DNA from: Dielma fastidiosa
GTDB lineage: Bacteria; Bacillota_I; Bacilli_A; Erysipelotrichales; Erysipelotrichaceae
Length of the DNA stretch: 34,746 nucleotides
Reading direction: 5' to 3'
Assembly (NCBI RefSeq): GCF_000313565.1
Contig: NZ_HE578928.1
Span: 301,121 to 335,866 of the forward strand
The position numbers were made by a program, and so were the translations under genes. Below the pieces are notes generated by a model, which ran no database searches, was not told the DNA's origin, and worked only from the letters and a program-made list of their open reading frames with translations. Within the stretch, counting starts at the first letter, position 1, and each line of letters starts with the position of its first letter. Positions 9,001 to 33,333 of this stretch are shown here, one piece after another.

Positions 9001-12000
9001 CGCACTCATGCCTGGCATCGCATCTTCGCTGGCTTTCAGATAAACTTCCTGATCCGTTGCTTCCTTGATCTCATTGCCAGCCTGATCCACGATCGTGATA
9101 CCGGCATAGCTGCTCGTCCATTCTACATTCTGATTGACGTAATCCTTTGGCTGCACGATGGCTTTTACCACACCGCTCGTTCCGCCGGCACTCAAGGTGA
9201 TGGAGGATACATTGAAGCCGATACTTTCGATCTTCGCTTCTTCTACCGTTATCACATCTGAAGTGTAAGAAACCGAGTTATTCCCTTCACCCTCTACAGA
9301 CACTCTGATTCTGAATGTTCCGGGCTTATTTGCTTTCAAAGTTCCTGAATTCATTTCAACGATATCACTGGTCGTTTCGTCCTCTGCATGGATCGCTTCC
9401 CATTTGAAATCGATCTGATTTGCATCTGCCGGTTCAAATACAGCATTGCACTGAAGCTGTCCACCTACTCGAAGAGGCATATCATTCAATAGTTTAATTC
9501 CAGTAATCTTCGTTACATATTTTTTAACGTCACTGCAAATAATTGTAATTTGAGCACTTGCTTGATTATCGCCTTCTTTTTCACCGCTTACCTTTACAAC
9601 AGCTGTTCCTGGTTTGTTATTGCCTTCATCACTTAAATTGAAACTTATCAATCCTTGATCACTGATTGATTCAATAATGCCATCTGGATCATTTATTTTC
9701 TCATAAGTGAGTTTCTTCTGAGTTGTATTAATTGGCAAATAATCAACTGTTAACTGCAATGTTTCGGTTTTATAAAAGCCTACAGTTTCTCCCTGCTTGA
9801 TGATCAGTGAGGTTGGATAGATCGCTTTTACTGTGAAGGTATGAGTCGTACTCACTGTCCCATCAAGGCTTTCTGCTTTTACTGTCACAGTTCCTTCACT
9901 TAAGAATCTGATCTCGCCATTTTCCTTGATTGCTGCGATCGTTAGGTTATCGACACTCCATTTCACTGCCTGATCACTGGCCGTCTTTGGTGTTGCTTCT
10001 GCGATCAGATTCAGTGTCTGATTCACGCCTACCTCACTTGGCAGCTCCTCGCCTGCTTCCTTATTCTTGATCGTCAGGCTCTTCAACTCCGTTCTTCCGA
10101 TCACTACTTCGATCGTATCGCTGAGTTCTTTGCCATTCTTGTCTTTCAGCTTACTCTTTGCACTGATGAGGACCTTCTCCCCATCCTTCACACTCTCATC
10201 GGCACTTAATACCGTTCCGTTCAAGGTGAATCCCGGATGGCTCTCGGCTTCCATTAATTCGTAGCTCACTCCTGCATAGGTTTCCATCGTTACATCACTG
10301 CCGCGATTCTTCACCTCCGGCAGTACGACGGATCGTAATTGGACGCTCTCGCCTCTTTCAAGAGTGATCACACTGCTTCCTTCGTCCGGCTGAATCTTCA
10401 ATGAATCGAGCACGGCCTCACTGATCGTGATCGTATATGTTTCTGTGAAATTACCATCCGCTGATCTTGCCTTGATCGTATACGCTCCAACTGAGCTGCC
10501 TTCGAATAGGACCGTTCCTTTTTCAGAAGTGATCGAACTTGTATTCTCTGTTGGTTCTTGGATCACTTCAAAGCTGACAGCTTTATCATCCGCATCTTCA
10601 TTGACTGTATATGTCAGCTCCAATGGATGAGCCGCATCACTCTTCAATTCTTGATTGAAGCTGAGTTCATGAACAGCATTCTTCACATTCAGTTCGATAG
10701 CACCGATCACGCCGTTCTCGCTCTCTGCTCGAATGATCACCGTACCGCTGTCATGAGCCGTTACGATTGCTTTTGTGAAATCGTTTAGATCCGCTTGTAT
10801 CGAAGCGATCGTTTCATCACTGCTGGTCCAAGTCAAAGAGAGTGCGTCGATCGGTTTGACAGAAGCTGAAAGATTCAATTGACTCAGATCTTCCTGATCT
10901 TCTATTGGGATATAATGATTGATCAACGTTCCGCGGTCATTTTCCGCAGTGATCGTGATCTTCGTCGGCACGGTACCGACAGTCACGAGACAAGAATCGG
11001 AATTACCGTCAACGGTAGTCGCAGTGATGAGAGCCGTCCCCGGGATCAGACCTGTGATCTGACCCTTATCATCGACATAAGCGACAGTAGGCTTAGAAGA
11101 AGACCATTTCAAAGTATTGTTGGCATTTTCAGGAAGCACAGTCGCAGTCAATGAAGCAGATTCATTGATCTTGACGGAAAGCTCATGCTTATCGAGAGAG
11201 ACGGTAGTCGTTTCACCAAAGGTAGGCACACCTTCAACGACTGTCCAAGTACGATATGTATTAGGAGAAGACAGATTCTCTTTATTGACCCATTGGTTCA
11301 GTTTATTCACCAAACTGTCTGATTCACTGGCTGGTGCACTTACTTGACTTGGTGTTACTTCGATGAGTCCTGTTTCTAATGCTTGCATGCCATCTGTTAA
11401 ATTACCGTCTGATACTCTAAACCATGTATTAAATTTATCATTTAGATATGAACTAGTATCGAAGTAACCATTAAATATTGTTTGCCCACCTATGTGCTTA
11501 TCATAAGTTCCAATCACCTTACAAAGTCGATATATATGAACATCATCTATATTTGAATCAATTTCAATTTTTAGATAATTATTATTGAAGTCATGTAATG
11601 TATCCCGCCATATCGTACCAATTAAACAACCAATTCGTGTTGTATACTGATATTCACCTTTTACATCAACTGAAAGCTTTACCAAATTATTTTCCATTAT
11701 GAATGGACCACCACCAGCTTCACCAATAACACCGCCAAAATGCTGACCTACATCGCGGTGATTTTCTCGTGTACCAATCGCTATTGTATAGTTATTAACA
11801 TCCATATTTATTTCATTATTAATAACTGTCAATTCATGATCGTAAATCTGAGCAATTATACCGCCGTTATAAGTAGCATTTGTAACATTATTAATTGATA
11901 AATCAACACTGCATCCTTCCACATATACTTTGATTTTTTTCTTATTTATGTCAAACACATCAAAATTGACAACACCTATCATTCCAGAAACTACATTGTT

Positions 12001-15000
12001 ATAATCGTGAATGTTATCAAAATCAACGTTAAAGTTTTGCACACTGCCTGCCGTATGAACATTAACGATGCTTATATTATCTGAGACCGCAGAAGCAAGC
12101 AAACTTCCCGCTTTTCCTTCAATATTGATGTTATCTATCGTTAAATTAGAAATGCTTCTGCTTCCTATACAACCAAACAAACCACCGATACCTGCATTCG
12201 TGTTATCTGTATAGATATTTTTGATACTGTGACCTAATCCATTGAAGTTACCCTTAAATTCATAGCTGCTGTTTCCAATTGGTTCCCATACTGGCTTGCT
12301 TTCCTTATTACCTCCCATGTCGATATCATTATCCAGATACAACGTATATCCTTCAAAGCCATTATATTCTCCGGCATTCGTTTTTTCAGAGATCCATGCT
12401 AATTCATTTGGGGTTTGAATATGTATGGTTTTATTTGCTGTATTCATTAACACTGGTTCTGAAGCTGTACCATCCCATACTGTACTGCTGAGCGGTTCTT
12501 TCACTGTAATAGTTATGCTTCCCTTGATTGCCGAGTTGGCTTTTGATGAAGCTACTATTATTAATTCTCCTGCCGTACTGCCTGCATTCAATGTTCCTTT
12601 TGAACTGACCGTGGCATTGGAGCCGTCAGGTTTTGATGTGATTTGCCAATTTATTGCCGTTTCATCAGCTGTATCAGGATACACCGACGCAGTTAATTTT
12701 ACTGTTTCATTTGTATATACTTCATTCTTTCCGGATAAGACGATACTTTCAATCGCATCATAGGCTGGTACGATGGTGATCGTACATGTGCTTTCAGGAT
12801 AGCTGGCATCATTCGGTGTCATTGTGATTTTGATTGTTTTACCCACTGGTGCCGTTTTAGAGACAGAGATGAAACCGTTGCTGTCAACTGTCGCATAAGC
12901 AGGATTGCTGCTTGTCCATGTTACTGCCATGTCTGGTGCACCAAATGGTGTAATAACCTTATCAAGCTGAGCGGTTTCACCTGGACGCAGAACTAATGCC
13001 GAAGGAGTTACTGTTATATTTTCTATTTCAGTAACACCTAAAGTCGGCAAACCATCTGTTCCTAACTTCCAATGTTTTAACTCCACTCCATTGTAAGTAG
13101 GATTAGAAATAACATATTCATTAAGTGATTTCACAATTGATATTGCATCATCTTTACTAAAAGATTTAACCATTGTTTCATCTGGACGACTTTCTGTTCT
13201 AACAGTACCAACTGCAATAGCTGTGGCTAGAGTTGAATTAATCTTAAATAATGAGTCTTGATAGAAATAGTTATTTTTAAAAGTCCCATCAAATGCCATT
13301 GATCCAAATAGTGATCCAACACTTCCACTATTCTTTTTAACATCCAAATCTGTTATTGAAACATTATTTTCAAATTTAAAACTTTGTGTATTTTGAGCAA
13401 CTGTCGCTCCTGTCAGGCCTCCAACACCAATTAAATCTCCTGTATAATCAATGATTATTTTTGATTTATTAAGACAGTTGATCATGCCTACTTCAAAATT
13501 ATCTCCACTTGTATTAAAACCAATTAAACCACCAATACTATCTGCTTTACTATTTAATTTTAGAGTACATCCATCTACATAACAGTTTATTATGCTCCCG
13601 CCAGCGTTGCAAATGGCTATCAGACCTGAATTAGTAGCTCCAATAAAGGTAGAATTTAAAACTGCACAATTACTTATAATACCCCCTTTTCTTATATCGC
13701 CAGTAATGGCACATCCAGCTGACATATCAATTCCATTTTTATAAATAACAGAATCAATCCTGCCAACAGTATATCCAGACACAAAAGCATTGCAATGATC
13801 TAAAACAAGATTTTTTACCAAACTGCCTTCTTCTATACCGGGAAACAAACCAAACATTGTACTATCTAAATTACTTATACTATACGATTGACCGTCAAAT
13901 ATTCCATAAAAACCAATATCTATTGTGTTATTTTGCCAGCTGTCATAATAAAGGCTTGTCCAATTTTTATTATTAACATCGATTGAATTTAATAGAACAA
14001 TTACATAATTTTCAAAACCATGATAGGCACTATCAGCTTTACCTTTACCCAATTCAGTAGCTATCCACGCTAATTCCGATGCTTTTGAAATATAAATATA
14101 TTTACCTTTTATTTCCGGCTCCTCAATCGTTTCACCATCCCACTTACTTCCTTGTTGAATCGTGATCGTACATTCTGCATGTTTGCCGCCGATACTTGCC
14201 TCTATAATCAATGTCCCGGCTTTCTTGGCAGTCAGTTTCCCGTCAGTTGTGATACTTGCATATTTCTCATAGCCTTTTTTGATTGACCAGATCACTTGAT
14301 CCTTTACTGCGTTTGCCGGTTCTATTACAGCTTCCATCTGTACACTGTCACCCGTTGAGATCGTCCCTGGATTTTTAATACTCAGCGCTGTGATCTCTGT
14401 TTCTTCCGGCATGACTGTTACCGTGATCATATCTGTGTATTGCTTCCCTGTCTCATCAACCGCTGTCATTGTGATCGTCCCCATTGAATAGGTAACTGCT
14501 GTTTCTTTAATTGTCAGCTTATTGCCTGATAATTCAAAAGAGTCTGTATCGGCATCCGCATTTAAACTCCATATCACATCAAGTGTCTTGGTAGAATTAT
14601 ACGGCTTCATTACAGCTTCCAGTTCAACACTTTCATTCCTTCTTAAATACAAGTCCTCTTGTTTGATAGAGACCGTAATTGGTGTAGTATTCGTGAGTCT
14701 TGGTGCTGTATTGCCATTACTTGTCCAAGCGAACCAGCCACTTTTACCTTCAGCATTCGCATTTAATGTATCAGCTAAGCCGCCTTCTGCCTGCACTAAT
14801 GTTTCAGCGTTTACCGACGTTGTTTTATTGGTTGCTGTATTTGAACTATCACCTACACCAAATGCTTTAATGCCCGACGTTATTAAGCTGCTGCTGTTAT
14901 AATGATCGGCATTTTTATTCCAGTAAACATTGTTTATTAAATCAAAATTTAATCCTTCTACATTAATATATCCAGCAATTGCACCTGGCAGATACCCTTC

Positions 15001-17871
15001 ACCTATTGAGTATTGGTTTTTAATTGTTCCATTCGCATAGATATTATTTAATGTAATTGTATCTATTGCTGTATTTGTGCGTAAGATCGAACCAATAAGG
15101 CCTCCTGTATATACAGGTAATGACCGCTCATTTGTTTTTATTGCCTGTACATCGATATTTGCATAAGAATTGCTGATAATAGTATTGCTAGATGTTTCTC
15201 CAATCAAACCACCTATCGACATCTTCTCAGTCTCTGCCACAGGTACAATACTATTCACTGCCTGTCCGCTGGCAGAACTATTCGTTATAGAACCGCCATC
15301 AATATAACCAATCAAACCACCTGCAATCTTGCCGTAAACATTCACATTTTCTACATGACAATTTCTTACTTCACTTCCATAAATCAAACTTACTAAACCA
15401 CCCGCATACATTTTTGAATAGATTGTTCCGTTGGATACAATAATATTCTCTAAAAGCGATTCTGATCGCACATAGCCAGCCAAACCGCCCATTTTTTGCT
15501 CAGAATTAATATTTTCAGTTGAGCCCCCTATAAAATGTTCAACCTTTAAATTTTTAATCGTTCCGCTTACGATCCAACCAAAAAGTGAATTAAACTCCTG
15601 ATTCTTATCTGAAGCAGCATAAATATTTGAGATTGTAAATCCCTGACCATCAAAGATACCACTAAAATAACTCGATCCGCCGCTGCCGATGGCAGTCCAT
15701 TCTGCAGGTGTTGCATTCTTACCACCTAAATCAATGCTGTTATCTAAGATAACTGTTTTCCCTGCAAATGTATTACCATTATTACATTGTTCTGCGATCC
15801 ATCTTAGCTCTGCCCCGCTTGTAATATGATATGTATTGCCTTCTACCTTTGGCTGTAAGCTTGTTACTCCATCCCATGTACTTGATTGTATCAATAAATT
15901 TATTTCATCAAGCATCATGTCATCAGCCCACAAAGATATAGTTACTTTACCCTGAGCTTTTGGTGTTAATAAGCCACTTTTAATGTTGATTTTAGCTATT
16001 TCATTTTCTTCAACATATAACTGCTCTCCATTTAATTCTTTCCCTTTTATCTTCCATATTAAATTGGATGAATCTGCATCGCTTGGATACACATTGGCTG
16101 TTAATTTCTTCGTATTTCCTAATTCTAATATGCCAGGATTATTGATAGAAGCCGATATAGGATAACCATTATCCAAAACCTTCAAAGTATATGTCATTGT
16201 ATTGATGCCATATCCTATATGAAGCAGATAATCACCAGCTTCAGCATTATTAGTCTTTATTAAACCCGTATTGCTGACAGAAATTTTACCTGCATCTATA
16301 TCAGCTTGATGAGAATTATCAAATTCCCATGTGAAAGATAAATTTCTGAAAGCAGAAAATGGAAACGCTGCTGCATGCAGTTGAATTTCATCAGTCGAAC
16401 TAACACTAATAATATTTGCAGATCCTTGATTTGATGGATAAACCTGAATGGATTGAACCTCTGGTTCTTTAAAAATAGGATATTTTGATGTAGGTGATGC
16501 TTCCCAATTCAAATAAGTATATGCATTTCCATTATCGTCTGTAGGTAAAATGGAAGCATCAAGATTACCTGCATTTAATAAAGTTGCGAAACTTTCACCT
16601 TGCATTTGGCTATCTTGTTTAGAAGTAAATCCTGAAAATGAACTTACGTTCACCAGCTTCCCTATGTCAGCCATTTCACTGTCTATTACATTCCATTTTG
16701 AAGCGTCTTTTAACCAATAAACATTGTCTACGGAGATTTCATATGCCACTTGCCCTATAACAGCACCTGAAGCTCCGCCCTTCTGATTGATAATTGTTGA
16801 TGTTGTATAATTACTATACAAATTTACATTTTTTATCCGTGAGCCAATCTCACCGATAAGTCCACCGCATGCGATATTTTTTAATTCTGAAATCACGGAT
16901 GTCATTACTTCAATCTTACTATCAGAATAATTATTACATATATAATGATATACACTCTCATTAATATTCTGATCCTCAGTTCCAACATATCCAATTAGAC
17001 CACCGCCAGCTAAGCTGACAGGATTCATGAAATCAATCTTAATATAATTATCTTTCGAGACTGAGTTAATAAGTCCTGATGATGAATGATTCCCAAACTC
17101 TGAACTGGTGACTGGCTGTATCAAGCCCAAGATGCCGCCAACAGTTCGACCTTTAATAACGGAGTTTTTTACAAAAGAATCAATTACCCAGCTGCCATTA
17201 CTCAGCCGTCCTGCTAAACCGCCTACTCTTTCTCCGGATAAATCAGCATTTTCAATTACAATATTTGAAACAATGGTGTGTATCAATTGAGCTGACAGCG
17301 TACCGCCATAATTACTTGTATTATTATTTGCAGCAATTACTGCATCAACAAATATTATATTTTTCAAATCCGCATTCTTCGTTACACCAAAAAAACCACT
17401 GAAAATCTCATCAGCTTGTTTTACATATAAGTTTTTTATCGTTCTTCCCTGACCGTCAAAGGTTCCGGCAAACGCATGCTCCAAATCTATACCAATCGGT
17501 GTCCATGCGATATTATCTAAATCGATGTCCCTTTCCAGTACGATTTTTTTATCCGCAAAGCTATACCCTTGATTTACCTGCTGCGCGATCCATGCCAGTT
17601 CTTCTCCTGTATAGATGTGATATGTATCTCCATCATTTCTTGGTTCAATTCCGCTTACTGTGCCAGTCCACCGTTCATCTTTTATCTGACTCGCTGCTTC
17701 TGTCGCTTTTACTTCTATTTCACTTTCAGGCACATAAGCACTGATGCCAACAGCCATACTCAGCGCGATCATCACCTTCAGTATTTTTCTTATTTCTTTC
17801 ATCATTTTCGATTCCCTCGCTTTTCCTCTTCGCTTCTTGCTTTCACCTGATTCCAATTCCTGTTTAACCAT
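3049..17871 (-). CDS. Giant secreted GLUG/Big_2 repeat surface protein with C-terminal dockerin-like motif
   Basis: This 4940-residue protein has a signal peptide at about residues 24-50 (MKEIRKILKVMIALSMAVG). Four GLUG/beta-solenoid units start at about residues 69, 666, 1244 and 1800. Each opens with W(D/T)G, then an ELAWIA-type helix, a DNDIDL strand and a GxFDGQGxxIxNL turn, followed by GGLIG-type repeats. The first three are each followed by two Big_2-like domains. About 20 Big_2-like domains (WTSSDESIATVDExG type) fill about 2215-4140, and eight cadherin-like/DUF5018-like sandwiches fill about 4143-4915. The last 25 residues contain one dockerin-type calcium loop (GDMNKDGYLNGTD). There is no LPXTG signal. 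The start at 17871 has AGGTGA nine bases upstream and overlaps the regulator by 8 bases. A second start at 17805 (GAGGG seven bases upstream) gives a more ordinary signal peptide and may be the true one. Likely an adhesin or cell-surface stalk; ligand unknown. Confidence 0.93.
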   Translation of the reverse strand: MVKQELESGESKKRRGKARESKMMKEIRKILKVMIALSMAVGISAYVPESEIEVKATEAASQIKDERWTGTVSGIEPRNDGDTYHIYTGEELAWIAQQVNQGYSFADKKIVLERDIDLDNIAWTPIGIDLEHAFAGTFDGQGRTIKNLYVKQADEIFSGFFGVTKNADLKNIIFVDAVIAANNNTSNYGGTLSAQLIHTIVSNIVIENADLSGERVGGLAGRLSNGSWVIDSFVKNSVIKGRTVGGILGLIQPVTSSEFGNHSSSGLINSVSKDNYIKIDFMNPVSLAGGGLIGYVGTEDQNINESVYHYICNNYSDSKIEVMTSVISELKNIACGGLIGEIGSRIKNVNLYSNYTTSTIINQKGGASGAVIGQVAYEISVDNVYWLKDASKWNVIDSEMADIGKLVNVSSFSGFTSKQDSQMQGESFATLLNAGNLDASILPTDDNGNAYTYLNWEASPTSKYPIFKEPEVQSIQVYPSNQGSANIISVSSTDEIQLHAAAFPFSAFRNLSFTWEFDNSHQADIDAGKISVSNTGLIKTNNAEAGDYLLHIGYGINTMTYTLKVLDNGYPISASINNPGILELGNTKKLTANVYPSDADSSNLIWKIKGKELNGEQLYVEENEIAKINIKSGLLTPKAQGKVTISLWADDMMLDEINLLIQSSTWDGVTSLQPKVEGNTYHITSGAELRWIAEQCNNGNTFAGKTVILDNSIDLGGKNATPAEWTAIGSGGSSYFSGIFDGQGFTISNIYAASDKNQEFNSLFGWIVSGTIKNLKVEHFIGGSTENINSEQKMGGLAGYVRSESLLENIIVSNGTIYSKMYAGGLVSLIYGSEVRNCHVENVNVYGKIAGGLIGYIDGGSITNSSASGQAVNSIVPVAETEKMSIGGLIGETSSNTIISNSYANIDVQAIKTNERSLPVYTGGLIGSILRTNTAIDTITLNNIYANGTIKNQYSIGEGYLPGAIAGYINVEGLNFDLINNVYWNKNADHYNSSSLITSGIKAFGVGDSSNTATNKTTSVNAETLVQAEGGLADTLNANAEGKSGWFAWTSNGNTAPRLTNTTPITVSIKQEDLYLRRNESVELEAVMKPYNSTKTLDVIWSLNADADTDSFELSGNKLTIKETAVTYSMGTITMTAVDETGKQYTDMITVTVMPEETEITALSIKNPGTISTGDSVQMEAVIEPANAVKDQVIWSIKKGYEKYASITTDGKLTAKKAGTLIIEASIGGKHAECTITIQQGSKWDGETIEEPEIKGKYIYISKASELAWIATELGKGKADSAYHGFENYVIVLLNSIDVNNKNWTSLYYDSWQNNTIDIGFYGIFDGQSYSISNLDSTMFGLFPGIEEGSLVKNLVLDHCNAFVSGYTVGRIDSVIYKNGIDMSAGCAITGDIRKGGIISNCAVLNSTFIGATNSGLIAICNAGGSIINCYVDGCTLKLNSKADSIGGLIGFNTSGDNFEVGMINCLNKSKIIIDYTGDLIGVGGLTGATVAQNTQSFKFENNVSITDLDVKKNSGSVGSLFGSMAFDGTFKNNYFYQDSLFKINSTLATAIAVGTVRTESRPDETMVKSFSKDDAISIVKSLNEYVISNPTYNGVELKHWKLGTDGLPTLGVTEIENITVTPSALVLRPGETAQLDKVITPFGAPDMAVTWTSSNPAYATVDSNGFISVSKTAPVGKTIKITMTPNDASYPESTCTITIVPAYDAIESIVLSGKNEVYTNETVKLTASVYPDTADETAINWQITSKPDGSNATVSSKGTLNAGSTAGELIIVASSKANSAIKGSITITVKEPLSSTVWDGTASEPVLMNTANKTIHIQTPNELAWISEKTNAGEYNGFEGYTLYLDNDIDMGGNKESKPVWEPIGNSSYEFKGNFNGLGHSIKNIYTDNTNAGIGGLFGCIGSRSISNLTIDNINIEGKAGSLLASAVSDNISIVNVHTAGSVQNFNVDFDNIHDYNNVVSGMIGVVNFDVFDINKKKIKVYVEGCSVDLSINNVTNATYNGGIIAQIYDHELTVINNEINMDVNNYTIAIGTRENHRDVGQHFGGVIGEAGGGPFIMENNLVKLSVDVKGEYQYTTRIGCLIGTIWRDTLHDFNNNYLKIEIDSNIDDVHIYRLCKVIGTYDKHIGGQTIFNGYFDTSSYLNDKFNTWFRVSDGNLTDGMQALETGLIEVTPSQVSAPASESDSLVNKLNQWVNKENLSSPNTYRTWTVVEGVPTFGETTTVSLDKHELSVKINESASLTATVLPENANNTLKWSSSKPTVAYVDDKGQITGLIPGTALITATTVDGNSDSCLVTVGTVPTKITITAENDRGTLINHYIPIEDQEDLSQLNLSASVKPIDALSLTWTSSDETIASIQADLNDFTKAIVTAHDSGTVIIRAESENGVIGAIELNVKNAVHELSFNQELKSDAAHPLELTYTVNEDADDKAVSFEVIQEPTENTSSITSEKGTVLFEGSSVGAYTIKARSADGNFTETYTITISEAVLDSLKIQPDEGSSVITLERGESVQLRSVVLPEVKNRGSDVTMETYAGVSYELMEAESHPGFTLNGTVLSADESVKDGEKVLISAKSKLKDKNGKELSDTIEVVIGRTELKSLTIKNKEAGEELPSEVGVNQTLNLIAEATPKTASDQAVKWSVDNLTIAAIKENGEIRFLSEGTVTVKAESLDGTVSTTHTFTVKAIYPTSLIIKQGETVGFYKTETLQLTVDYLPINTTQKKLTYEKINDPDGIIESISDQGLISFNLSDEGNNKPGTAVVKVSGEKEGDNQASAQITIICSDVKKYVTKITGIKLLNDMPLRVGGQLQCNAVFEPADANQIDFKWEAIHAEDETTSDIVEMNSGTLKANKPGTFRIRVSVEGEGNNSVSYTSDVITVEEAKIESIGFNVSSITLSAGGTSGVVKAIVQPKDYVNQNVEWTSSYAGITIVDQAGNEIKEATDQEVYLKASEDAMPGMSAMIQAKAEGSTITASFPVMILRTAGSRLEITYDETRPLIAGGESLELNAKIYASDGKTPASSQEVSWESSDPSIAKIDKAGTVKPLKAGAVTITARAKEDEKIMKQITLTVKEPALDSLTLSQASMVLLSGSEDKELRLLLPEGSSADDFEWTSSDSSVLEIRGMSTTRSIKIKALKAGTATITVQQQGNTDESKKANCEVKVVKDPILVQTIELQGPDKAVELNEIVIIKAVINKDTDMASNETLTWTSKDESIVRVLDRTGTFTRVQVIRAQGNVTIEAAANDGSGVKASIEIRTAGNTPTGITLDKRLIQMSTSSPGESLKAMIVPSTVQNQQVIWSVSQPGIIQPINSTKPSITLYPMPGVQPNSFVEVTATTTNGISTSCIVAITEKKVESLLIQRSKLQVSVGETIELPIKIEPSDASQRELRWNVTGSDPEAVSIHDNQLTAKSEGTVFLQAFSTDGSNVASNQIEIEVIAAQPAPTLEKISMNKTTLNLLPGDSGSLKVISEPLNYDLKDELIRWNVEVLGSVNSDQQALILEQFTLTPRYTIDETGNHDETETGIIDAEFDISPTMAEVIDSLSSEESPISEITLKVTASIGSDESAMNAETTIKIKKEEGNEASITNVNIKGTDGVSITSPIELMLGEQLRLLAEIITEPTDAVNVYGIWSSDDEQIAAIDTETGILKAVNSGSAVISYQPYIGAKPAGEPVPLLVIVKKDTSKLEYIQLSETSLSLSVNRTHALTYDIEPMDYSGPRSIEWTSSDESIATVDESGNISTHSEGTAMITLDLDGYLAFCKVTVSTQFETPVSEITTALSDDFAELELGPVEPTIFLEAKADALATDTSLIYQSSDESIASVDENGMVTGHEAGFVIITIRPVSDKNPYYKQVFIKVIPQICYQVLLDQTDLSLKKGDSVDLQAVLTPQVKEGTSLTYRWETESNEITIKNADRPQATLTLTESAGIGVEYTVTVTAVVEGHEPASAQVKLRAVEDAALSDFWVVGSNSEVYTKDSTNNISMNSGDSIGFTFAAEPAEKQAANVHNSDPSAVEISKAGDQVTLTAKKAGTVHLTFTSIYDSSKSVVITVNITESQDSSIYPTSISLSSQNRKNVVEIGETLQLKAEIKPEGAESGLYYSTSNKNIAAVSENGMVSGISEGEAVITAYSQKDMDVRGSITISVVKPEAKPVKFTKLQIKDGNGKVYDYDEAIYAQSQDYVFRVENTVSRKAIEVIYELNQPEAIVKLGNEAQISGNQIDFTSGSVMYELTAQDGTVTHEQVSVLLSDAPSEDAVMVIEKASIDGTDYQAEKIDDKTYRVTIPYVLYQSGAAMNVTYTTENTSNVYIGAELQSSGISTVKAERSIHYTLIGQNGKKQDVVLQVESGPYAKTMSLSQGGKQIEGTIEGEVVSFTVDESFKLNESLSLSFTTDSYMTDAEDRTVMLTSVTTFGDTKELKYTGKVELSNGKETVTYTLQVTQIVQLPKTQLTEFKLMDKEGNEILGQNVSIEGDLILVKVPSSTDLTAMTMSGNEEITLSVEGQIGAIYDLTKKAVITASQAEHAQSRYTLIVTKETGGAELTGISLNGVLGVINGNEVSVSLPKGTDLSAVTPVFTLSDKNAKVMVSGSEYTTGTIDCTQPLLITVEMNGIKNAYLIKAVIHQGPQFTGKITISQEIMGESGSEMITLTATPDNENGTVVFEAEADKFDLTKPFTIIYTTNDGSVLYENTIKITSGSTINLGTTEKSFILKNGADESVYTMKIVEKIINEITLNELYVMVNGTKVLGRIIDNVVYLDIDKNLTMNFKDLTLYIDASNIKNILLNGQKYSNGMEFDLSMDSTMILIDDEGNMKIYTIKTQNITDNPIFYSFEFEDRTDVEKIFIDNLNGKILIYVKKGALPTQIVNFNVGTGKVYDTRGRVINSQGTKMTFNNTYISPIIVRLRNEDESKEVEYEISMLVESDPILEGDMNKDGYLNGTDVSILLSRVGG
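5450..11230 (-). repeat. Array of about 20 Big_2-like Ig domains within the giant protein
   Basis: About 20 consecutive modules of 80-100 residues follow the Big_2 pattern: xLxIxxxxxxLxxGxSxxLxAxVxPxxA, then WxSSDxSIAxVDxxGxVxxxxxGxxxITA, then a closing TVTV strand. They were counted by eye, so the number may be off by one or two; several in the middle (modules 4, 6, 14, 19) are degenerate. Such arrays usually act as rigid spacers that hold a distal domain away from the cell. Confidence 0.8.
11240..17670 (-). repeat. Four-fold GLUG module array within the giant protein
   Basis: A block of roughly 560-600 residues occurs four times in the giant gene. Each begins at a WDG/WTG motif (near bases 17667, 15876, 14142 and 12475), followed by an ELAWIA-like segment, a conserved LDNxIDLxxxxW..IG strand and FxGxFDGQGxxIxNI. 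GGLIG/GGLAG turns follow. Copies 1-3 end in two Big_2-like domains; copy 4 runs straight into the long Big_2 array. The copies are diverged at protein level, so the duplications are old. Confidence 0.8.
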
Positions 17872-24917: not shown

Positions 24918-25631
24918 TCATTGCATATTGGCTAATCGCTTCAATTCATTTACTTCTTCAGGTGTGCATTCACGCCATTGTCCCACCGCTAATCCCTTTA
25001 TGGTCAGATTAAGGAAACGGATTCTGCGCAATGAACGAACATGATAATTCAAAGCTGAACACATCCTTCGGATTTGACGGTTATAACCCTGTGTCAAAAT
25101 GATTCTGAAATGCCGTGGGCCAGTTTGATGAATTTCACACTTCTTAGTAATAACATAGCTGTTGGTAACTGGGTTATAGATTCGAATCCCAGCTGCCATC
25201 TTTGCCAAAAACTCATCATTGATCCGGCCGTCTACTTCAACCTCATACTCTTTTGTATGCCCGTTTTCTTCTCTTAAGGTCTGATTTACAATATCACCGT
25301 CATTTGTTAGAACAATTAATCCGCTTGAATCCTTATCCAAACGGCCAATTGGGAATAAACGTTCAGGATAGTTGATATAATCAATAATATTCCCTTCGAC
25401 ATGTCTTTCCGTAGTACAGGTAATACCTACCGGTTTATTCAAAAGCAGATAAACATAATCCCTAAGCGGTTCAACTCTTTTGCCATCCACACAGACAACG
25501 TCACCCTCTTCAATCGGGGTGCTGATTAATGCCGGCTGACCATTTACCGTAACGCGTCCGTCTTGGATAAATTGCTCGGCAGCCCGGCGGGAACAAAAAC
25601 CGGTTGAACTGATATATTTATTGATTCTCAT
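24918..25631 (-). CDS. rluF: 23S rRNA pseudouridine synthase, RluF/RsuA family
   Basis: This 237-residue protein converts a uridine in rRNA to pseudouridine. An S4 RNA-binding domain occupies about residues 1-47 (MRINKYISSTGFCSRRAAEQFIQDGRVTVNG, split at the typical SRRxAE motif). The catalytic domain begins at LLLNKPVGITCT; the catalytic Asp is Asp99 in GRLDKDSSGL. The later YNRQIRRMCSALNYHVRSLRRIRFLNL is the usual RsuA-family ending. The short insertions and RRIRFLNL tail fit RluF (23S position 2604 in E. coli) better than RluB or RsuA, but subfamily assignment is by eye. GAGGG six bases upstream supports the start, and it has its own promoter at 25649-25677. Confidence 0.88.
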   Translation of the reverse strand: MRINKYISSTGFCSRRAAEQFIQDGRVTVNGQPALISTPIEEGDVVCVDGKRVEPLRDYVYLLLNKPVGITCTTERHVEGNIIDYINYPERLFPIGRLDKDSSGLIVLTNDGDIVNQTLREENGHTKEYEVEVDGRINDEFLAKMAAGIRIYNPVTNSYVITKKCEIHQTGPRHFRIILTQGYNRQIRRMCSALNYHVRSLRRIRFLNLTIKGLAVGQWRECTPEEVNELKRLANMQ

Positions 25632-25711: not shown

Positions 25712-26632
25712 CTAAAATAAGACAGTCTGTTTAACTTTCTGCCTTTTATCGACTAATTTATCCTCTGGTTTAAGATGACCTATCAGCATTGTAGACATCG
25801 GATCATGCTGGTGCAAATTCATTTTGACCTTTGCCTCATCATAATTGGCATAGCAATAGCTGCAGCCATGGGCACAGCAGTTGTACGCGCCAAGATCAGT
25901 ATATGCCAGACAATCACAGCCGTCACCTCTTGTTTTAGCAAGCGGATATGCGCTGTGTATGCCATAGTCAGCAAGCAGCTTTGAGGATATACAGCTGCCT
26001 TTTTGAATATTTAGATGCTGGAGATCAATTTTTTCACCGCAAGTCTGCAGCCGGATACCATAGCTTTCCGCAATCTGAGCCATCCCTCTGGCAAGCAGCA
26101 GCATTTGACTCTCACTGATTGGCAGCAGCTTTAACTCAGCTTGGTGAGCACGGGTATTTTTATATTCATCGACAAAACTAAATATAATTGTATCGATAGT
26201 GGATGACAATTGTTCACACAAACGCTGAAAAGCCTTCATGTGGTAGTCGATTGTATACCGCTGATTCAGCAGAATCGGATCATAACGAACAATTACCGCG
26301 TGTCGACCATATCGGCGGCTCAAAGTGCGGACAGCTTCTATAATTAACCTTTTATCCGCGACATTTTTCTCAATATCATGAGTATAGGGTGTAATCGTAA
26401 TTTGAAAACAGCAGTTATAACCATTTAATTGATCCAGCTTTGCCATCATCGGCAGTGGATTTTTACTCATAAATACGATTAAATCAACATTTTCCCGGCT
26501 TAGATTCACACGGTGAACAAGCTGAGGATTAAAAGGCGCGCGTACATCGGCAAAGCCTTCCTTGATTCGCTGATAAAACCAATCAGAAAAATACGCAGGA
26601 ATATCACAGCGCTGTGACACACTGAGGATCAT
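25712..26632 (-). CDS. DUF1848 family protein with radical-SAM-like cysteine cluster
   Basis: This 306-residue protein matches DUF1848: MILSVSQRCDIPAYFSDWFYQRI at the start, IVFMSKNPLPM, FQITITPY, VRYDPILL and a C-terminal cysteine-rich block. The block has C239-x-C241, then C252-C253, and C253-x3-C257-x2-C260 in CAHGCSYCYAN, the spacing that binds a 4Fe-4S cluster in radical SAM enzymes, but placed at the C-terminus instead of the N-terminus. The Pfam family is uncharacterised, and its resemblance to the radical SAM cluster motif has been noted before. It starts two bases after the phosphatase stop without a clear ribosome binding site, so translation is probably by reinitiation. A redox or radical enzyme acting with its operon partners is possible; substrate unknown. 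Confidence 0.88.
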   Translation of the reverse strand: MILSVSQRCDIPAYFSDWFYQRIKEGFADVRAPFNPQLVHRVNLSRENVDLIVFMSKNPLPMMAKLDQLNGYNCCFQITITPYTHDIEKNVADKRLIIEAVRTLSRRYGRHAVIVRYDPILLNQRYTIDYHMKAFQRLCEQLSSTIDTIIFSFVDEYKNTRAHQAELKLLPISESQMLLLARGMAQIAESYGIRLQTCGEKIDLQHLNIQKGSCISSKLLADYGIHSAYPLAKTRGDGCDCLAYTDLGAYNCCAHGCSYCYANYDEAKVKMNLHQHDPMSTMLIGHLKPEDKLVDKRQKVKQTVLF

Positions 26633-26634
26633 AA

Positions 26635-27354
26635 TTATACCAGTTGTGAGCGCAGCTCGTCAATTTCTTCTTCACTTAAGCCGGCGGATGTCAGATAACC
26701 GCGAATCGTATACCGCTGATTAAAATAAGCCAAGGTTTGGCGCATATTCTGCGGATCAGACTCAAATACATGCAGCGGCAGCTTCATGTGAATATCTTCC
26801 AATGATTTTTGAAGGCGGTGAATATAAGGCAGTAAATTCTGATAACTTGCCGCGTAATCATTAATAATCGTTTCTTCATCAACATCCGCCAGCTTCAGCA
26901 GCAGCATTGCCAGTACCCCAGTACGGTCTTTACCCGCGGTACAATGAAATAAAACGGTTCCCTTACTTGCCAGCATGATTTTAAATATTTCACCGATCAT
27001 TGCCTGACTCTTATCGAGAATACGGCAATATAATTGATCCATTGAGGAAATCGTCAAGGTCTGCATCTTTCCTGGTTCCGCATCTTCAGATAATGAAAAT
27101 GCGTAATTTTTTATATCTTTATAATTAATCAGCCGGTCAGGTTTAGTCGCTCTTTCATCCGCTGAACGTAAGTCGATAATTGTACGAACACCGTAATCAT
27201 ATAAATAAGCGCAATCTTCATCACTCAATTCAGATATCCCGCCTGAGCGTATAAAATGCCCTTGTTTTAAAGTTTGCTTATCAATATTTACATAACCGCC
27301 TAATTCACGAACATTAAATGCTGTCTGAATCGGCAGCGGTTTATTTGCTTCCAT
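26635..27354 (-). CDS. Tyrosine-protein phosphatase (Y_phosphatase3 family)
   Basis: This 239-residue protein has the CX5R phosphatase loop H137-C138-TAGKD-R144-TG, with Cys138 the predicted nucleophile and Arg144 the phosphate-binding residue. The N-terminal FNVRELGGY and FIRSGGISELSDED plus TIIDLRSADERATKPD are the family's other signatures. Relatives (LipA-, IphP- and PtpB-like) act on phosphotyrosine, phosphoserine or phosphoinositides, so the substrate is uncertain. The ATG lies inside the last codons of nadE (14-base overlap) and its AAGGAGG is part of the nadE coding sequence, so the two are coupled. Confidence 0.9.
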   Translation of the reverse strand: MEANKPLPIQTAFNVRELGGYVNIDKQTLKQGHFIRSGGISELSDEDCAYLYDYGVRTIIDLRSADERATKPDRLINYKDIKNYAFSLSEDAEPGKMQTLTISSMDQLYCRILDKSQAMIGEIFKIMLASKGTVLFHCTAGKDRTGVLAMLLLKLADVDEETIINDYAASYQNLLPYIHRLQKSLEDIHMKLPLHVFESDPQNMRQTLAYFNQRYTIRGYLTSAGLSEEEIDELRSQLV

Positions 27355-29620
27355 TTAGTTCCTCCTTTAAGACAGTGAGTGCCTTTCTGTATAGATATGG
27401 CTGAATTGCCGGATAGGTAAGCTTTTTAGGCAATTTATCTAACAGCACAATTGATTCAATTTCATATTCCGGCAAGGGTTCCAGCTCTTCAATATCCGCA
27501 AAGAATAACTGCCCCCATGATGGCTCTCCCTTACTTTCTACACAATAATTAAATAAAGGTTTGCAAGTGCATTTCACCGCACCGGTTTCTTCAAATAACT
27601 CTCTGACCGCCGTTTCCTGAATCGTTTCATTCAGCTCCCGTTTACCGCCGGGAATTTCCAGTGTATCGCGGTTTTTAGCTTGGACAAAGATCCACTTGCT
27701 TTGATAACGTGCCATAATGACCGCATACCGCACAGCCTCATGATCGTTTGGCGAACTGAAAGTAATTGTAGGTTTATTCAATATTTGCGTCTTTAAATCT
27801 AAATAGCGCTGACTTCTTTCAACCTTCATCTGATTCTCTCTGAAATCACTGCCGAAAGACCCCCGCGATACCATAACGATGGGCGGCGTCTGCAGACGTT
27901 TAAATACACCGGCAGAAAATTTAGAAAGTACCCATTCAAGATCTTCAATAAAAGCCCCTGGCTCCTCTAAATGATACAGGCGCAGCCATTTGCCAAATTC
28001 ACCCTCCATGATTGAACCATCAAGATAATCCGCGAGCAGTGTCTCAATCTGATACGTTGGATATTCACAAAGACGCTGTACCAAGTAATCATGGTAAAAC
28101 CATTTCATCGGATCACTCTGATTACTCTTTAACTCAGCACTAGGCGGCATCTGCCATTTCAGCTCACCCATAACCATTTCAGGCAATAAATTAGTTGGAA
28201 TCACTTCTTCATGAAGGGTTTCATTGATGCTTCTCGCAAGCTCAAATAATTCTGCCTTGGTCACATCGCCTAAAGGTGCAATGCAGCCAATCGTATCACC
28301 ATATAGCGTACAATAGCCCAATGCCATTTCAACCTTATTGCCATTATTGATTATGACACCATTTTCAAGCTGTGAAACGGCGCTTAACACAGAGCCTCTG
28401 ATTCTGGCTTGTATATTTTCTAAAGCAAATTCTGTAACATCCTGTGTTATATATTGTTTCAAAACTTCCTCACTTGCTGTAACCAATGACTGAATCATGC
28501 CGTCCCGGCATTCAATACCAAGACGTTTTGCCAGCTGATGAGCATTATCAATCGTTGTCGTACTGTTATATTGAGTTGCCATATTTAAACCGATGATTCT
28601 CTCTTTGCCTAATGCCATCGTCAGTAACGCGGCATTCACACTGCTGTCCAAGCCGCCTGACAGACCAATGATCCATTTTACTTTTCTATCAAACAGCTGT
28701 TCATCAAACTCCTTTAATGAACAAAGCAAGGCTTTCAACAGCTTATGTTCTGTTTTCTTAACAGCGGAAGCTTCATCAAGATCAACAACCTTCAATTCTT
28801 CCATAAACGCATCATTGCATGCGTGAATAACTTCGCCAGCTTTATTCCAAATCGTTGAATCACCATCAAAGACACATACAGTTTTAGAGCTATTCTGCAT
28901 GCCGCACGCATTTACATAGACAAAAGGCACAAATGGATAAATATCCAAGCAATGCCTCATAATCTGTTTACTTCTGCCAATTTCTTTATTTCTAGTCCAT
29001 GGAGAACTGGAAATATTAACAATCATCGATACATGCTCCCGCAGATATTCTCTGGTAGGATCAAAACTGTAATCACCATTCCACATATCTTCACAGACTT
29101 CTAATCCGATCCGCTCAACATGATTATTGATTTCAAACAGAAAGGGACTGGTCATGAAATTACGATCAACGACCAATTGTTCACATAATTCAAGAGCTGA
29201 AAGAAAGTAACGGCTGTCATCAAAAACACGGTAATCGGGATTAAGGTATTTGACATACATTCCATCATACAAGCCATTTTCACGTTTAACCCATTCTCCG
29301 TTATAAGCAAAGAATGCCGTATTTAAACGAACCTTGCGTCCATCACGGCCGCGAATCCCCTTAATCGTTCCCAGATTTCCCCAAATCACGCCAATCCCCT
29401 GTGAACATTGACGGATCTCTTCATTATATGCTATTAAACTCTCACACCAGTCATTATCCAGCCATTTATCTGCCAACAAGTAACCTGAAACACATAATTC
29501 AGGAAACACAATTAAATCCGCATGATCCTCTTTTGCTTTTTGAATCATGACTTTCATAGCCGCTATATTCTCTGAAGGCCTGCCAGCCTTTACATTCAAT
29601 TGTCCCATTGCGATTTTCAT
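27341..29620 (-). CDS. nadE: Glutamine-dependent NAD+ synthetase fused to a C-terminal NUDIX hydrolase
   Basis: This 759-residue protein makes NAD+ from deamido-NAD+, ATP and glutamine. Residues about 1-280 are the nitrilase-type glutaminase (Glu41 in VFPELCVSGY, probable Lys124, nucleophile Cys176 in LEVCEDMW). Residues about 310-600 are the synthetase, with the ATP pyrophosphatase P-loop SGGLDSS at 321-327 and the late KWFYHDYLVQRL and PPIVMVSRGSFGSDFRENQ segments. The normal enzyme ends near residue 600-640. Here about 130 more residues form a complete NUDIX domain with an intact box (G659-x5-E665-x7-R673-E674-L-x-E677-E678-x-G680-A), so it is probably active on a nucleoside diphosphate. 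The frame is continuous. It heads the operon with the phosphatase and DUF1848 genes; TAGGAG nine bases upstream supports the start. Confidence 0.95.
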   Translation of the reverse strand: MKIAMGQLNVKAGRPSENIAAMKVMIQKAKEDHADLIVFPELCVSGYLLADKWLDNDWCESLIAYNEEIRQCSQGIGVIWGNLGTIKGIRGRDGRKVRLNTAFFAYNGEWVKRENGLYDGMYVKYLNPDYRVFDDSRYFLSALELCEQLVVDRNFMTSPFLFEINNHVERIGLEVCEDMWNGDYSFDPTREYLREHVSMIVNISSSPWTRNKEIGRSKQIMRHCLDIYPFVPFVYVNACGMQNSSKTVCVFDGDSTIWNKAGEVIHACNDAFMEELKVVDLDEASAVKKTEHKLLKALLCSLKEFDEQLFDRKVKWIIGLSGGLDSSVNAALLTMALGKERIIGLNMATQYNSTTTIDNAHQLAKRLGIECRDGMIQSLVTASEEVLKQYITQDVTEFALENIQARIRGSVLSAVSQLENGVIINNGNKVEMALGYCTLYGDTIGCIAPLGDVTKAELFELARSINETLHEEVIPTNLLPEMVMGELKWQMPPSAELKSNQSDPMKWFYHDYLVQRLCEYPTYQIETLLADYLDGSIMEGEFGKWLRLYHLEEPGAFIEDLEWVLSKFSAGVFKRLQTPPIVMVSRGSFGSDFRENQMKVERSQRYLDLKTQILNKPTITFSSPNDHEAVRYAVIMARYQSKWIFVQAKNRDTLEIPGGKRELNETIQETAVRELFEETGAVKCTCKPLFNYCVESKGEPSWGQLFFADIEELEPLPEYEIESIVLLDKLPKKLTYPAIQPYLYRKALTVLKEELNGSK

Positions 29621-30082: not shown

Positions 30083-30736
30083 ATGAATAAAATCTACGGG
30101 TACATACGTGTCTCAAGTAAGGATCAAAACGAAGATCGGCAGCGTGCTTCTCTGGCTGAATGGAATATTAAACCAAGAAACATTTTCATGGATAAACAAA
30201 GCGGAAAGGATTTTGAGAGACCGCAGTGGCAGCGGCTGATGAAGAAACTTAGTCTGGGGGATTTGCTGGTTGTATCAAGTATCGACCGGCTAGGCAGAAA
30301 CTACGATGAAATTCTCGAACAATGGCGAATCATAACTAAGGATATCGGCGCTGATATTGTCGTCCTTGATTTTCCGCTGCTTGATACCCGTGTTTCTGAC
30401 CGTAATCTGACCGGTATTTTTATCGCTGATCTTACGCTGCAGATTCTTGCTTATGTTGCACAGATTGAAAGAGAAAATATTAAGAAGAGACAGGCTGAAG
30501 GAATCGCCGCCGCTAAAGCGAGAGGTGTGAGCTTTGGCAGAAAGAAAATGCCGCTTCCGGATAATTTCAATGAGGATTTCCATAAATGGCGGCTGAAGGA
30601 GATATCGACAAAGGAATTAGAAGAGCGGTGCGGAATGAACAGAGCGAGTATTTATAGAAGACTGAGACAGGCAGGCATACCATTAAACAGTTATCTTCAG
30701 GATGCTTTTCTTTTAAATGATTCGGAAGATGAGTGA
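30083..30736 (+). CDS. Serine recombinase (resolvase/DNA invertase family)
   Basis: This 217-residue protein has the resolvase catalytic domain at about residues 3-145. Ser11 in YIRVSSKDQNEDRQ is the nucleophile, with Arg9 beside it. SSIDRLGRNYDEIL carries the active-site arginines, and IERENIKKRQAEGIAAAKARGVSFGRKK is the E-helix and linker. A C-terminal helix-turn-helix (about 165-205, STKELEERCGMNRASIYRRLRQAGI) binds the crossover site. Size and layout match Hin/Gin-type invertases and Tn3-type resolvases, not the large serine integrases. No transposase or transposon ends are seen, so a local invertase is plausible. AAGGGG precedes the ATG within a run of seven G. A facing inverted-repeat pair lies upstream and a polysaccharide acylation cassette downstream. 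Confidence 0.93.
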   Translation: MNKIYGYIRVSSKDQNEDRQRASLAEWNIKPRNIFMDKQSGKDFERPQWQRLMKKLSLGDLLVVSSIDRLGRNYDEILEQWRIITKDIGADIVVLDFPLLDTRVSDRNLTGIFIADLTLQILAYVAQIERENIKKRQAEGIAAAKARGVSFGRKKMPLPDNFNEDFHKWRLKEISTKELEERCGMNRASIYRRLRQAGIPLNSYLQDAFLLNDSEDE

Positions 30737-30889: not shown

Positions 30890-31915
30890 ATGAAATTATT
30901 ACAGATTCTATTATTATTTACAATTGTTTTAGTCATTGCCGCAGCAGGCTTGTTTTATATGCCTAAGCGTACTGAGGCAGAACCCTTAACAAAACCAGCG
31001 GCAGTACCGATGTGTGTCAGAGATCCGAATGTTTTTTATGTAAAGGAATATGAAGCTCTGGGCGGCGGTATTTATATGTATGGAAATAGTGGTTATTTAC
31101 TTTATCGTCCTGTAGAGTCCATTGATTTTACTAATTATGAAAGATTTACAGATAAGTTTAATTCAATGATCGAGGTCATGAGTGATGTCGATTTTTTTGC
31201 TTACTATATTCCTACTTCCGGAGCTGTAGATTTCAGCAGACTTCCGATTCATGATGATTATTATACATTTATACAGTCACATTTACATGTGAAAGAGATG
31301 AAGCGGCTGGATATGAACAGCTTTTCAGATTATAAAAATTATTTCTATAAAACAGATCATCATTGGAGTTATCAGGGCTCTTATCAAGGGTATGTGGATA
31401 TATTAGGAATGCTGAAACCAGAAGCAGAGGTAATAAAGCCGCTTGATTTGAATTGTTTTGATAACTTACAGTCTTTAGGATCAAATGCTAGACAGAGCGG
31501 CAGTAATATGACAGAAAATTTCTGTGCCTATGAATTTGAAAGGAATCCTAATATTACGGTTAGGATCAATGATATTGAGAGTACCTATGGCAATGAAGAA
31601 GCTTATCGTTTAAAAATGTATGATGAAGCATTAGGCGTCAGTCATTATGGCATTTATTATGGCGGTGATGATGGCAAGCTGGTATTTACAAATCCTGATC
31701 AAGAGGGAAATCTGTTAGTCATTGGTACTTCATTTGATAATGCAATTGTGAAATTACTTGCGGAGAGTTTTAATCAGGTACATGTGATTGATATGCGCTA
31801 TTATGAAGATGATATGCAGATGCCTTTAGATTTAGAAGCTTATATGAAGGAGAATAGCATTAATCAGTGTTTGCTTGTTGGTGATAATTGGTTTTATAAG
31901 CTGGCTGGAGAATAA
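30890..31915 (+). CDS. DHHW/AlgX-like SGNH acyltransferase protein, first paralogue
   Basis: This 341-residue exported protein has an N-terminal membrane or signal segment (about 4-24) and an AlgX/AlgJ-type SGNH domain. The DxH signature is Asp156-His157-His158-Trp in YFYKTDHHW, and the likely nucleophile is Ser281 in IGTSFDNA. In alginate and similar systems such proteins transfer acetyl groups, passed outward by an MBOAT partner, to an exported polysaccharide. It is roughly half identical to the gene at 33343 but lacks that protein's N-terminal ENR...FL(N)DQ segment, starting instead with a short linker. The MBOAT gene begins two bases after its stop. Family call is firm; the polymer is unknown. 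Confidence 0.88.
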   Translation: MKLLQILLLFTIVLVIAAAGLFYMPKRTEAEPLTKPAAVPMCVRDPNVFYVKEYEALGGGIYMYGNSGYLLYRPVESIDFTNYERFTDKFNSMIEVMSDVDFFAYYIPTSGAVDFSRLPIHDDYYTFIQSHLHVKEMKRLDMNSFSDYKNYFYKTDHHWSYQGSYQGYVDILGMLKPEAEVIKPLDLNCFDNLQSLGSNARQSGSNMTENFCAYEFERNPNITVRINDIESTYGNEEAYRLKMYDEALGVSHYGIYYGGDDGKLVFTNPDQEGNLLVIGTSFDNAIVKLLAESFNQVHVIDMRYYEDDMQMPLDLEAYMKENSINQCLLVGDNWFYKLAGE

Positions 31916-31917
31916 GC

Positions 31918-33333
31918 ATGGTTTTTTCAAGTCTGAGTTTTTTATTCTTCTTCCTGCCGCTTGTTTGCTGCCTCTATTTCCCAATCAGCAATTTGAAATG
32001 GCGTAATTTAGTCTTGTTTACCGCTTCAATTATTTTCTATGCCTGGGAAGAACCAATCTATGTTTTGGTTATTCTGGCAACGATGCTGGTAGCGTATCTG
32101 TTTGGTTTATTAATTGAAATATATAAGGAAATGTATTCAAAATTAGCACTGTTTTACTTTATACTGTCAATTTTCACTTGCATCTTCTTTCTGTTTTATT
32201 TTAAGTATCAGCGGTTTATTTTTTCTAACTTAAATCTGATTCTGCCTTTTCAGATACCAATTAAAGAATTGATTTTACCGGTTGGTATCAGTTTCTATAC
32301 ATTTCAAGTATTGTCTTATTTAATTGATGTATATCAGGGAAAGGTGCAGGCTCAGCATAATTTTATTCGGCTTGGCACATATATTGCGCTATTTCCTCAG
32401 CTGGTTGCGGGGCCAATTGTCCGCTATGAAACGATTGAACAGGAATTAAGAGAGCGGCACAGCAGCATTGCGGATATTGCGAATGGTCTGCGGCGATTTA
32501 TTTTGGGCTTAGGAAAAAAGTTGATTTTAAGTAATAACATGGCTGTCCTTGCCGATTTTGTATTTAATCAGGCACCGTCAGCGAGCGGTACGGTTTTGAT
32601 TTGGCTTGGAGCGGTTGCTTATACGTTTCAGATTTATTTTGATTTTTCCGGTTACAGTGACATGGCTATCGGCTTGGGACAAATGTTTGGTTTTCACTTT
32701 TTAGAGAATTTTCGTTATCCGCTGATTGCGAAAAGCATCACCGATTTTTGGCGGCGCTGGCATATATCGCTAAGCAGCTGGTTTAGAGATTATATCTATA
32801 TACCTTTGGGCGGTAATCGATGTTCTAAGTTTAAATGGATACGCAATATATTGATTGTCTGGTTACTTACCGGACTGTGGCATGGCGCAAACTGGAATTA
32901 TATTCTCTGGGGTCTATACTTTGGCTTATGGCTGATGCTTGAGAAATTATTTCTGCTTAAATTAACTGAGAAGCTGCCTTCTATTTTGCGTTGGCTATTT
33001 ACTTTATTTGTAATCATTGTCAGCTGGGTGATTTTCAGGGTCGAGGATATGCAGGCATTGTTGGGCTTTCTGCATCGCATGTTTGTATATGCGCCTGCGG
33101 ATCTAAGCAGGATTGCCTATGAACAGCCGGATGCCGTGTATGCCTTATGTTATATGCCATTGGCTTTTTCAGCGAGCCTGCCAGCTTTCAATAAGCTTTA
33201 TCGGCGTTATTTTGCCCAGAGTCAGCGGCTTGCCGGTGTTATAGCGGATCTGATGTTTGTGATAATTTTATTCATATGCATTATCATGCTGATGAGTAAT
33301 TCCTATAATCCTTTTATCTACTATCGTTTTTAG
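31918..33333 (+). CDS. MBOAT family O-acyltransferase (AlgI/DltB-like)
   Basis: This 471-residue multispanning membrane protein moves acyl groups across the membrane for polysaccharide or wall polymer modification. Signatures are VGISFYTFQVLSYLIDVYQG (about 122-141), FPQLVAGPIVRYE (159-171), YFDFSGYSDMAIG (240-252), FWRRWHISLSSWFRDYIYIPLGGNR (277-301) and the catalytic His322 in LLTGLWHGANWNYILWG. It looks closer to the AlgI-type group, paired with SGNH proteins, than to DltB, because no dlt genes are nearby. GGAG seven bases upstream lies in the end of the preceding gene. Intact by length and motifs. Confidence 0.95.
   Translation: MVFSSLSFLFFFLPLVCCLYFPISNLKWRNLVLFTASIIFYAWEEPIYVLVILATMLVAYLFGLLIEIYKEMYSKLALFYFILSIFTCIFFLFYFKYQRFIFSNLNLILPFQIPIKELILPVGISFYTFQVLSYLIDVYQGKVQAQHNFIRLGTYIALFPQLVAGPIVRYETIEQELRERHSSIADIANGLRRFILGLGKKLILSNNMAVLADFVFNQAPSASGTVLIWLGAVAYTFQIYFDFSGYSDMAIGLGQMFGFHFLENFRYPLIAKSITDFWRRWHISLSSWFRDYIYIPLGGNRCSKFKWIRNILIVWLLTGLWHGANWNYILWGLYFGLWLMLEKLFLLKLTEKLPSILRWLFTLFVIIVSWVIFRVEDMQALLGFLHRMFVYAPADLSRIAYEQPDAVYALCYMPLAFSASLPAFNKLYRRYFAQSQRLAGVIADLMFVIILFICIIMLMSNSYNPFIYYRF

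Follow-up and report, generated by a model that had tools for sequence, protein, structure and literature searches.

Dielma fastidiosa carries a gene in which a complete predicted NAD synthetase (NadE) continues, in a single reading frame, into a complete NUDIX domain. It lies in the window, the stretch of 34,746 nucleotides of contig NZ_HE578928.1 that was analysed. Both domains with their intact motifs, the junction between them, the restriction to one genome and the geometry of the insertion can be read from the DNA itself; the activity, substrate, origin and benefit are what we infer from them. With a probability of roughly one half, the gene represents a genuine, lineage-private fusion that yields one bifunctional protein, composed of NadE and an independent pyrophosphohydrolase resembling YtkD/BsRppH, whose tether gives co-expression and co-localisation.

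The fusion gene and its junction

The gene and its downstream neighbours, all on the minus strand, comprise the following features (window coordinates).

24918-25631, minus strand: RsuA-like pseudouridine synthase gene, whose homologue has a direct overlap with nadE in the nearest genus (three genomes)
25712-26632, minus strand: DUF1848 gene (Pfam), between nadE and rsuA
26635-27354, minus strand: Y_phosphatase3-type tyrosine phosphatase gene, which overlaps the fusion gene by 14 bp and has a strong Shine-Dalgarno sequence within the 3' end of the NUDIX part
27341-29620, minus strand: nadE-NUDIX fusion gene, 759 aa, a single open frame with an ATG start, AGGAG upstream and no internal stop
28769-29617, minus strand: CN_hydrolase, the nitrilase-type glutaminase domain, aa 2-284, with the triad E41/K124/C176 intact (Pfam, alignment)
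28109-28678, minus strand: NAD synthetase domain, aa 315-504, with SGGLDSS at 321-327 (Pfam; matches to the PDB NadE entries 5kha and 4f4h)
27779-27808, minus strand: final helix of NadE, aa 605-614, close to the ends of long-type NadE homologues (alignment, model)
27344-27778, minus strand: NUDIX domain, aa 615-759, of a YtkD/BsRppH-like subfamily marked by TYPxIQP (Pfam, sequence comparison, model)
27578-27646, minus strand: intact NUDIX box GKRELNETIQETAVRELFEETGA, aa 659-681 (sequence)
27398-27418, minus strand: TYPAIQP, aa 735-741, the mark of the NUDIX subfamily (alignment of 14 sequences)

The initial annotation had described an NAD+ synthetase followed in the same frame by an intact NUDIX hydrolase, and the 759-codon frame with both sets of active-site motifs complete bears this out. 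Pfam assigns CN_hydrolase to residues 2-284 (44.8 bits, cut-off 23.2), NAD_synthase to residues 315-504 (137 bits, cut-off 21) and NUDIX to residues 638-730 (35.5 bits, cut-off 21.1). Residues 1-614 unite the Glu/Lys/Cys triad and SGGxDS in one chain, as is typical of NadE of type F, and the key residues of the triad and the ATP motif are invariant across 25 long-type NadE proteins. Like the type F enzymes of PDB entries 5kha and 4f4h, the protein combines a nitrilase glutaminase with a synthetase domain, triad and ATP motif intact; it differs from them in its divergence (303 bits with NF010588, cut-off 479) and in the additional C-terminal NUDIX domain. The latter has the GX5EX7REUXEEXGU box of the NUDIX superfamily, laid out as G659-x5-E665-x7-R673-E674-L-x-E677-E678-x-G680-A681, and its model, obtained from the domain alone with 13 stand-alone relatives, has a mean pLDDT of 95.7 and matches NUDIX folds. 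The full-length model was built on NadE rows only, because the NUDIX rows were misplaced when NadE and stand-alone NUDIX proteins were aligned together; its NUDIX part is unusable and gives the domain no placement. Residues 1-614 would thus form a complete glutamine-dependent NAD synthetase, and the C-terminal 145 residues a complete NUDIX pyrophosphohydrolase predicted to be catalytically competent.

The two parts meet at L614/N615 (27779/27778) with no linker between them, and base 27790, which had been doubted earlier, falls at this junction. Two adjacent genes joined by an error of assembly or base calling would explain why only one genome carries the fusion, and the stops that both other frames contain at the junction would suit a frameshift error. 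Such an artefact is nevertheless highly improbable. NadE homology remains in frame through I613-L614, with KTQIL here and KDEIL in genome G096; the NadE of G096 ends with ...LKDEILSHAHK and a stop, and the equivalent stretch of the fusion reads ...LKTQILNKPTITF. Long-type NadE homologues stop no more than about 25 residues away from the position equivalent to 614. NUDIX homology starts a few residues past the junction, with the N-terminus of the stand-alone proteins kept except for the start codon. If an indel or a restored stop is assumed at 615-617, the first ATG, GTG or TTG available to the NUDIX part is V630 or M636, within its first conserved strand. Because NadE homology is in frame up to L614, a separated NUDIX gene would have no start ahead of V630 or M636, and GC3 is even across the junction, the join of NadE and NUDIX is taken as real.

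Other NadE proteins of the group deserve mention. The same genome encodes a second NadE of 548 aa (L062:994-2640, C1). In an alignment of this protein with 18 other homologues, including those of Longicatena and Amedibacillus dolichus, other residues take the place of E41 and C176, K124 is missing from most, and SGG-DS is kept. The short proteins with lost glutaminase residues (L062, L053, L060, L045-L061 and L039) have about 520-577 aa and are apparently pseudo-glutaminase NAD synthetases, a class on which no paper was found in our literature search. In the tree, the losses fall into at least two separate clades. The second NadE shares its downstream neighbour with the copies of Longicatena and Amedibacillus. 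A related genome contains a different fusion, NadD-NadE (L101:3823-6378, 851 aa), composed of CTP_transf_like, CN_hydrolase and NAD_synthase domains; its gene overlaps the end of the preceding nicotinate phosphoribosyltransferase-like gene.

The NUDIX domain and its stand-alone relatives

The PDB protein closest to the fused NUDIX domain is BsRppH, both in sequence (best PDB match 4jzu, E 1.7e-13) and in fold (4jzv/4jzu, Z 17.7, 2.1 A over 138 residues); the next fold group follows at Z 14.6, about 3 Z units lower. TIGR02705, the YtkD family, is matched by all 14 subfamily members scanned and is the top NCBIfam match of the fused copy, which scores 66 bits at full length and 70 bits as a domain alone and does not reach the curated equivalog cut-off of 154.4. 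The fused NUDIX is, by these scores, related to YtkD but is not a member. It shares the NUDIX box with YtkD/BsRppH (PDB 4jzs-4jzv) and differs in its identity of only about 30-33%, its TYPxIQP tail, the Ala in place of His at 648 and the attachment to NadE. T-Y-P-x-I-Q is invariant in 14 of 14 subfamily sequences, and the tail motif TYPxIQP is proper to the subfamily. The fused copy keeps 21 of the 23 positions that are invariant in the 13 stand-alone relatives; the two departures are L630V and H648A, and the His replaced in the latter also occurs in the aligned BsRppH sequence.

BsRppH acts on RNA with a 5'-triphosphate (PMC3997798) and is reported to decap NAD-RNA in B. subtilis (PMC7226252). 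The activity that defines the YtkD/BsRppH family (TIGR02705) is 5' phosphate removal from RNA, with a preference for G at position 2. Since the YtkD score lies far under the curated cut-off, the BsRppH substrate is not assured for the fused domain. It would most likely retain the activity of its stand-alone relatives, a metal-dependent reaction that cleaves the 5'-phosphate groups of NTPs or of RNA 5' ends, and NAD-capped RNA ends may be an additional substrate.

The stand-alone NUDIX genes are patchily distributed and have no common neighbourhood, and no NAD genes were recognised next to them when the neighbours were judged by eye and by cross-comparison. Members of the subfamily also occur in other combinations. 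In genomes of one genus, belonging to another family of the class (L110, L111), the domain is joined to a hexapeptide (LbH) acetyltransferase-like domain, assigned by eye, in open frames of 336-349 aa, for which reason the subfamily seems prone to fusion. A further protein (L079:1045-2016, 323 aa overall) combines it with a C-terminal region that has no Pfam match.

Distribution, neighbourhood and origin

With the NUDIX part as query against 272 genomes of the family, stand-alone homologues were found in about 15, mostly 135-160 aa in length and 34-48% identical; the fused copy is about 47% identical to the closest of them. A NadE-fused NUDIX occurs among the 272 in this genome only, which is also the sole representative of its genus in the sample. 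A 14-row NUDIX profile applied to samples of the class (395 genomes) and the phylum (392 genomes) revealed no other NadE fusion among the NUDIX carriers, and NadE loci from 196 genomes of the order and GTDB contigs contained no NUDIX of this kind beside nadE. Among phages, plasmids and viral contigs no fusion was seen, the matches listed covering NadE only (to residue about 614) or nothing, and our literature search found no paper describing a NadE-NUDIX fusion. The initial annotation would have abandoned the fusion if close relatives all had separate genes, and this check came out positive, as no other of the 272 family genomes has the fusion. The private distribution limits the fusion to an event in one genome; it does not make it unreal. 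Because it is found in one genome only, it counts as a lineage-specific gene fusion and not as a new type of system.

The most similar NadE proteins, 65-67% identical, come from three genomes of one genus and form a tree clade with support 100/100. In these genomes nadE, without NUDIX, and the rsuA-like gene overlap by 14 bp, whereas here the NUDIX domain, the tyrosine phosphatase and the DUF1848 gene separate the NadE part from the rsuA-like gene. This difference in arrangement suggests that the NUDIX was probably captured through an insertion at the 3' end of nadE; for the steps and their order, we infer that a block of NUDIX, tyrosine phosphatase and DUF1848 ended up separating nadE from the rsuA-like gene and that the NUDIX reading frame joined the 3' end of nadE. 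The related genomes that were checked have DUF1848 elsewhere on the chromosome or lack it. NUDIX, phosphatase and DUF1848 were also considered as one mobile block of common origin, an idea that was rejected as no such grouping was seen at the other loci compared.

Divergent from the fusion gene and about 0.46 kb away lies a serine recombinase (resolvase) gene (30083-30736, plus strand), which could bear on an insertion beside nadE. The phosphatase (26635-27354, minus strand) has, besides its clear Y_phosphatase3 match, a match below the cut-off (23.9 bits versus 27) to PTP-NADK, a phosphatase fused to NAD kinase. An NAD riboswitch was sought near the fusion gene, and Rfam gave no match anywhere in the window. 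Elsewhere the window contains a giant frame of 4940 aa (3049-17871, minus strand) in which bacterial Ig-like (Big_2) stretches occur at least eight times, likely a surface protein, and a gene pair for a DHHW protein and an MBOAT acyltransferase (30890-33333, plus strand) that resembles exopolysaccharide acetylation genes.

Possible functions and known NAD-linked fusions

The tether would secure co-expression and co-localisation of two activities, not a dedicated NAD reaction. A link of the NUDIX to NAD chemistry, for example by the clearing of ADP-ribose, had been supposed and was not supported: its relatives resemble YtkD/BsRppH, stand alone and have no recognised NAD-gene neighbours. The cleaning of oxidised nucleotides is possible. 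A role in NAD metabolism, with the NUDIX disposing of ADP-ribose, NaAD/NADH or damaged dinucleotides close to the synthetase, has precedents in NadM-Nudix and PncC-COG1058, which have been read as coupling NAD consumption to regeneration (PMC3680494); moreover, fusion partners often come from one pathway, as in the NadD-NadE protein of a related genome. We nevertheless regard it as unlikely, since the domain is nearest to YtkD/BsRppH and not to ADP-ribose pyrophosphatases, its stand-alone relatives are patchy and lie in unrelated neighbourhoods, and another family has the same subfamily joined to an acetyltransferase-like domain. The protein might couple NAD+ synthesis to the hydrolysis of NAD-related nucleotides or RNA 5' ends, for instance by removing NAD caps in the manner of BsRppH, such that one enzyme would both make NAD+ and control its use as a cap; that would come as a considerable surprise.

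The two domains may, on the other hand, have nothing to do with each other. A recent, near-neutral fusion, retained since neither domain was harmed, would agree with its occurrence in a single genome, with a junction that has neither linker nor adaptation and with the lack of a NUDIX beside nadE in the nearest genus. To this we give rather little credence, because 21 of 23 subfamily-invariant residues have been kept despite an identity of only about 47% to the closest stand-alone relative, so that the NUDIX is constrained at least as a domain. A nucleotide-binding NUDIX that tunes NadE allosterically, as the non-catalytic NUDIX domains of NrtR or TRPM2 do, would fit the observation that noncatalytic Nudix domains typically occur in multidomain proteins (PMC5389931), but it is quite improbable, as every catalytic residue of the NUDIX box is intact, which favours hydrolysis over mere binding. 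An independent pyrophosphohydrolase attached to NadE is the reading we prefer.

NudC, the NAD(H) pyrophosphatase that also decaps NAD-RNA, is characterized by SQPWPFPxS past the NUDIX box. By inspection, this motif is absent from the fusion sequence. Likewise, Pfam reveals no HTH domain that would correspond to the C-terminal winged helix of NrtR, and in the model one helix after the NUDIX fold ends the chain. Nor does Pfam find, in the 759 aa, the CTP_transf_like domain expected of NadM-Nudix. The fused NUDIX belongs neither to the ADP-ribose NUDIX of NadM nor to NrtR.

The known fusions of NAD-pathway enzymes with pyrophosphatases are NadM-Nudix and PncC-COG1058 (PMC3680494), and these earlier cases guided the assignment of function. 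In NadM-Nudix, NMN adenylyltransferase is joined to a Nudix ADP-ribose pyrophosphatase; the fusion described here resembles it as an NAD-biosynthesis enzyme joined to a NUDIX but contains NadE instead of NadM and a NUDIX of another subfamily. PncC-COG1058 (CinA) likewise unites an NAD-recycling enzyme and a pyrophosphatase in one protein, although in both of its parts the domains are unrelated to those of NadE-NUDIX. NadE-NUDIX is thus a further combination, of another NAD enzyme with an RppH-like branch of NUDIX. Since it is private to a single genome, it should for now be seen as a curiosity, not a system. Because BsRppH acts on both 5'-triphosphate and NAD-capped RNA, the NAD link merits an assay, not a claim, and given the reported removal of NAD caps by BsRppH (PMC7226252), the fusion offers a simple protein with which to probe whether the supply of NAD is linked to the 5' ends of RNA.
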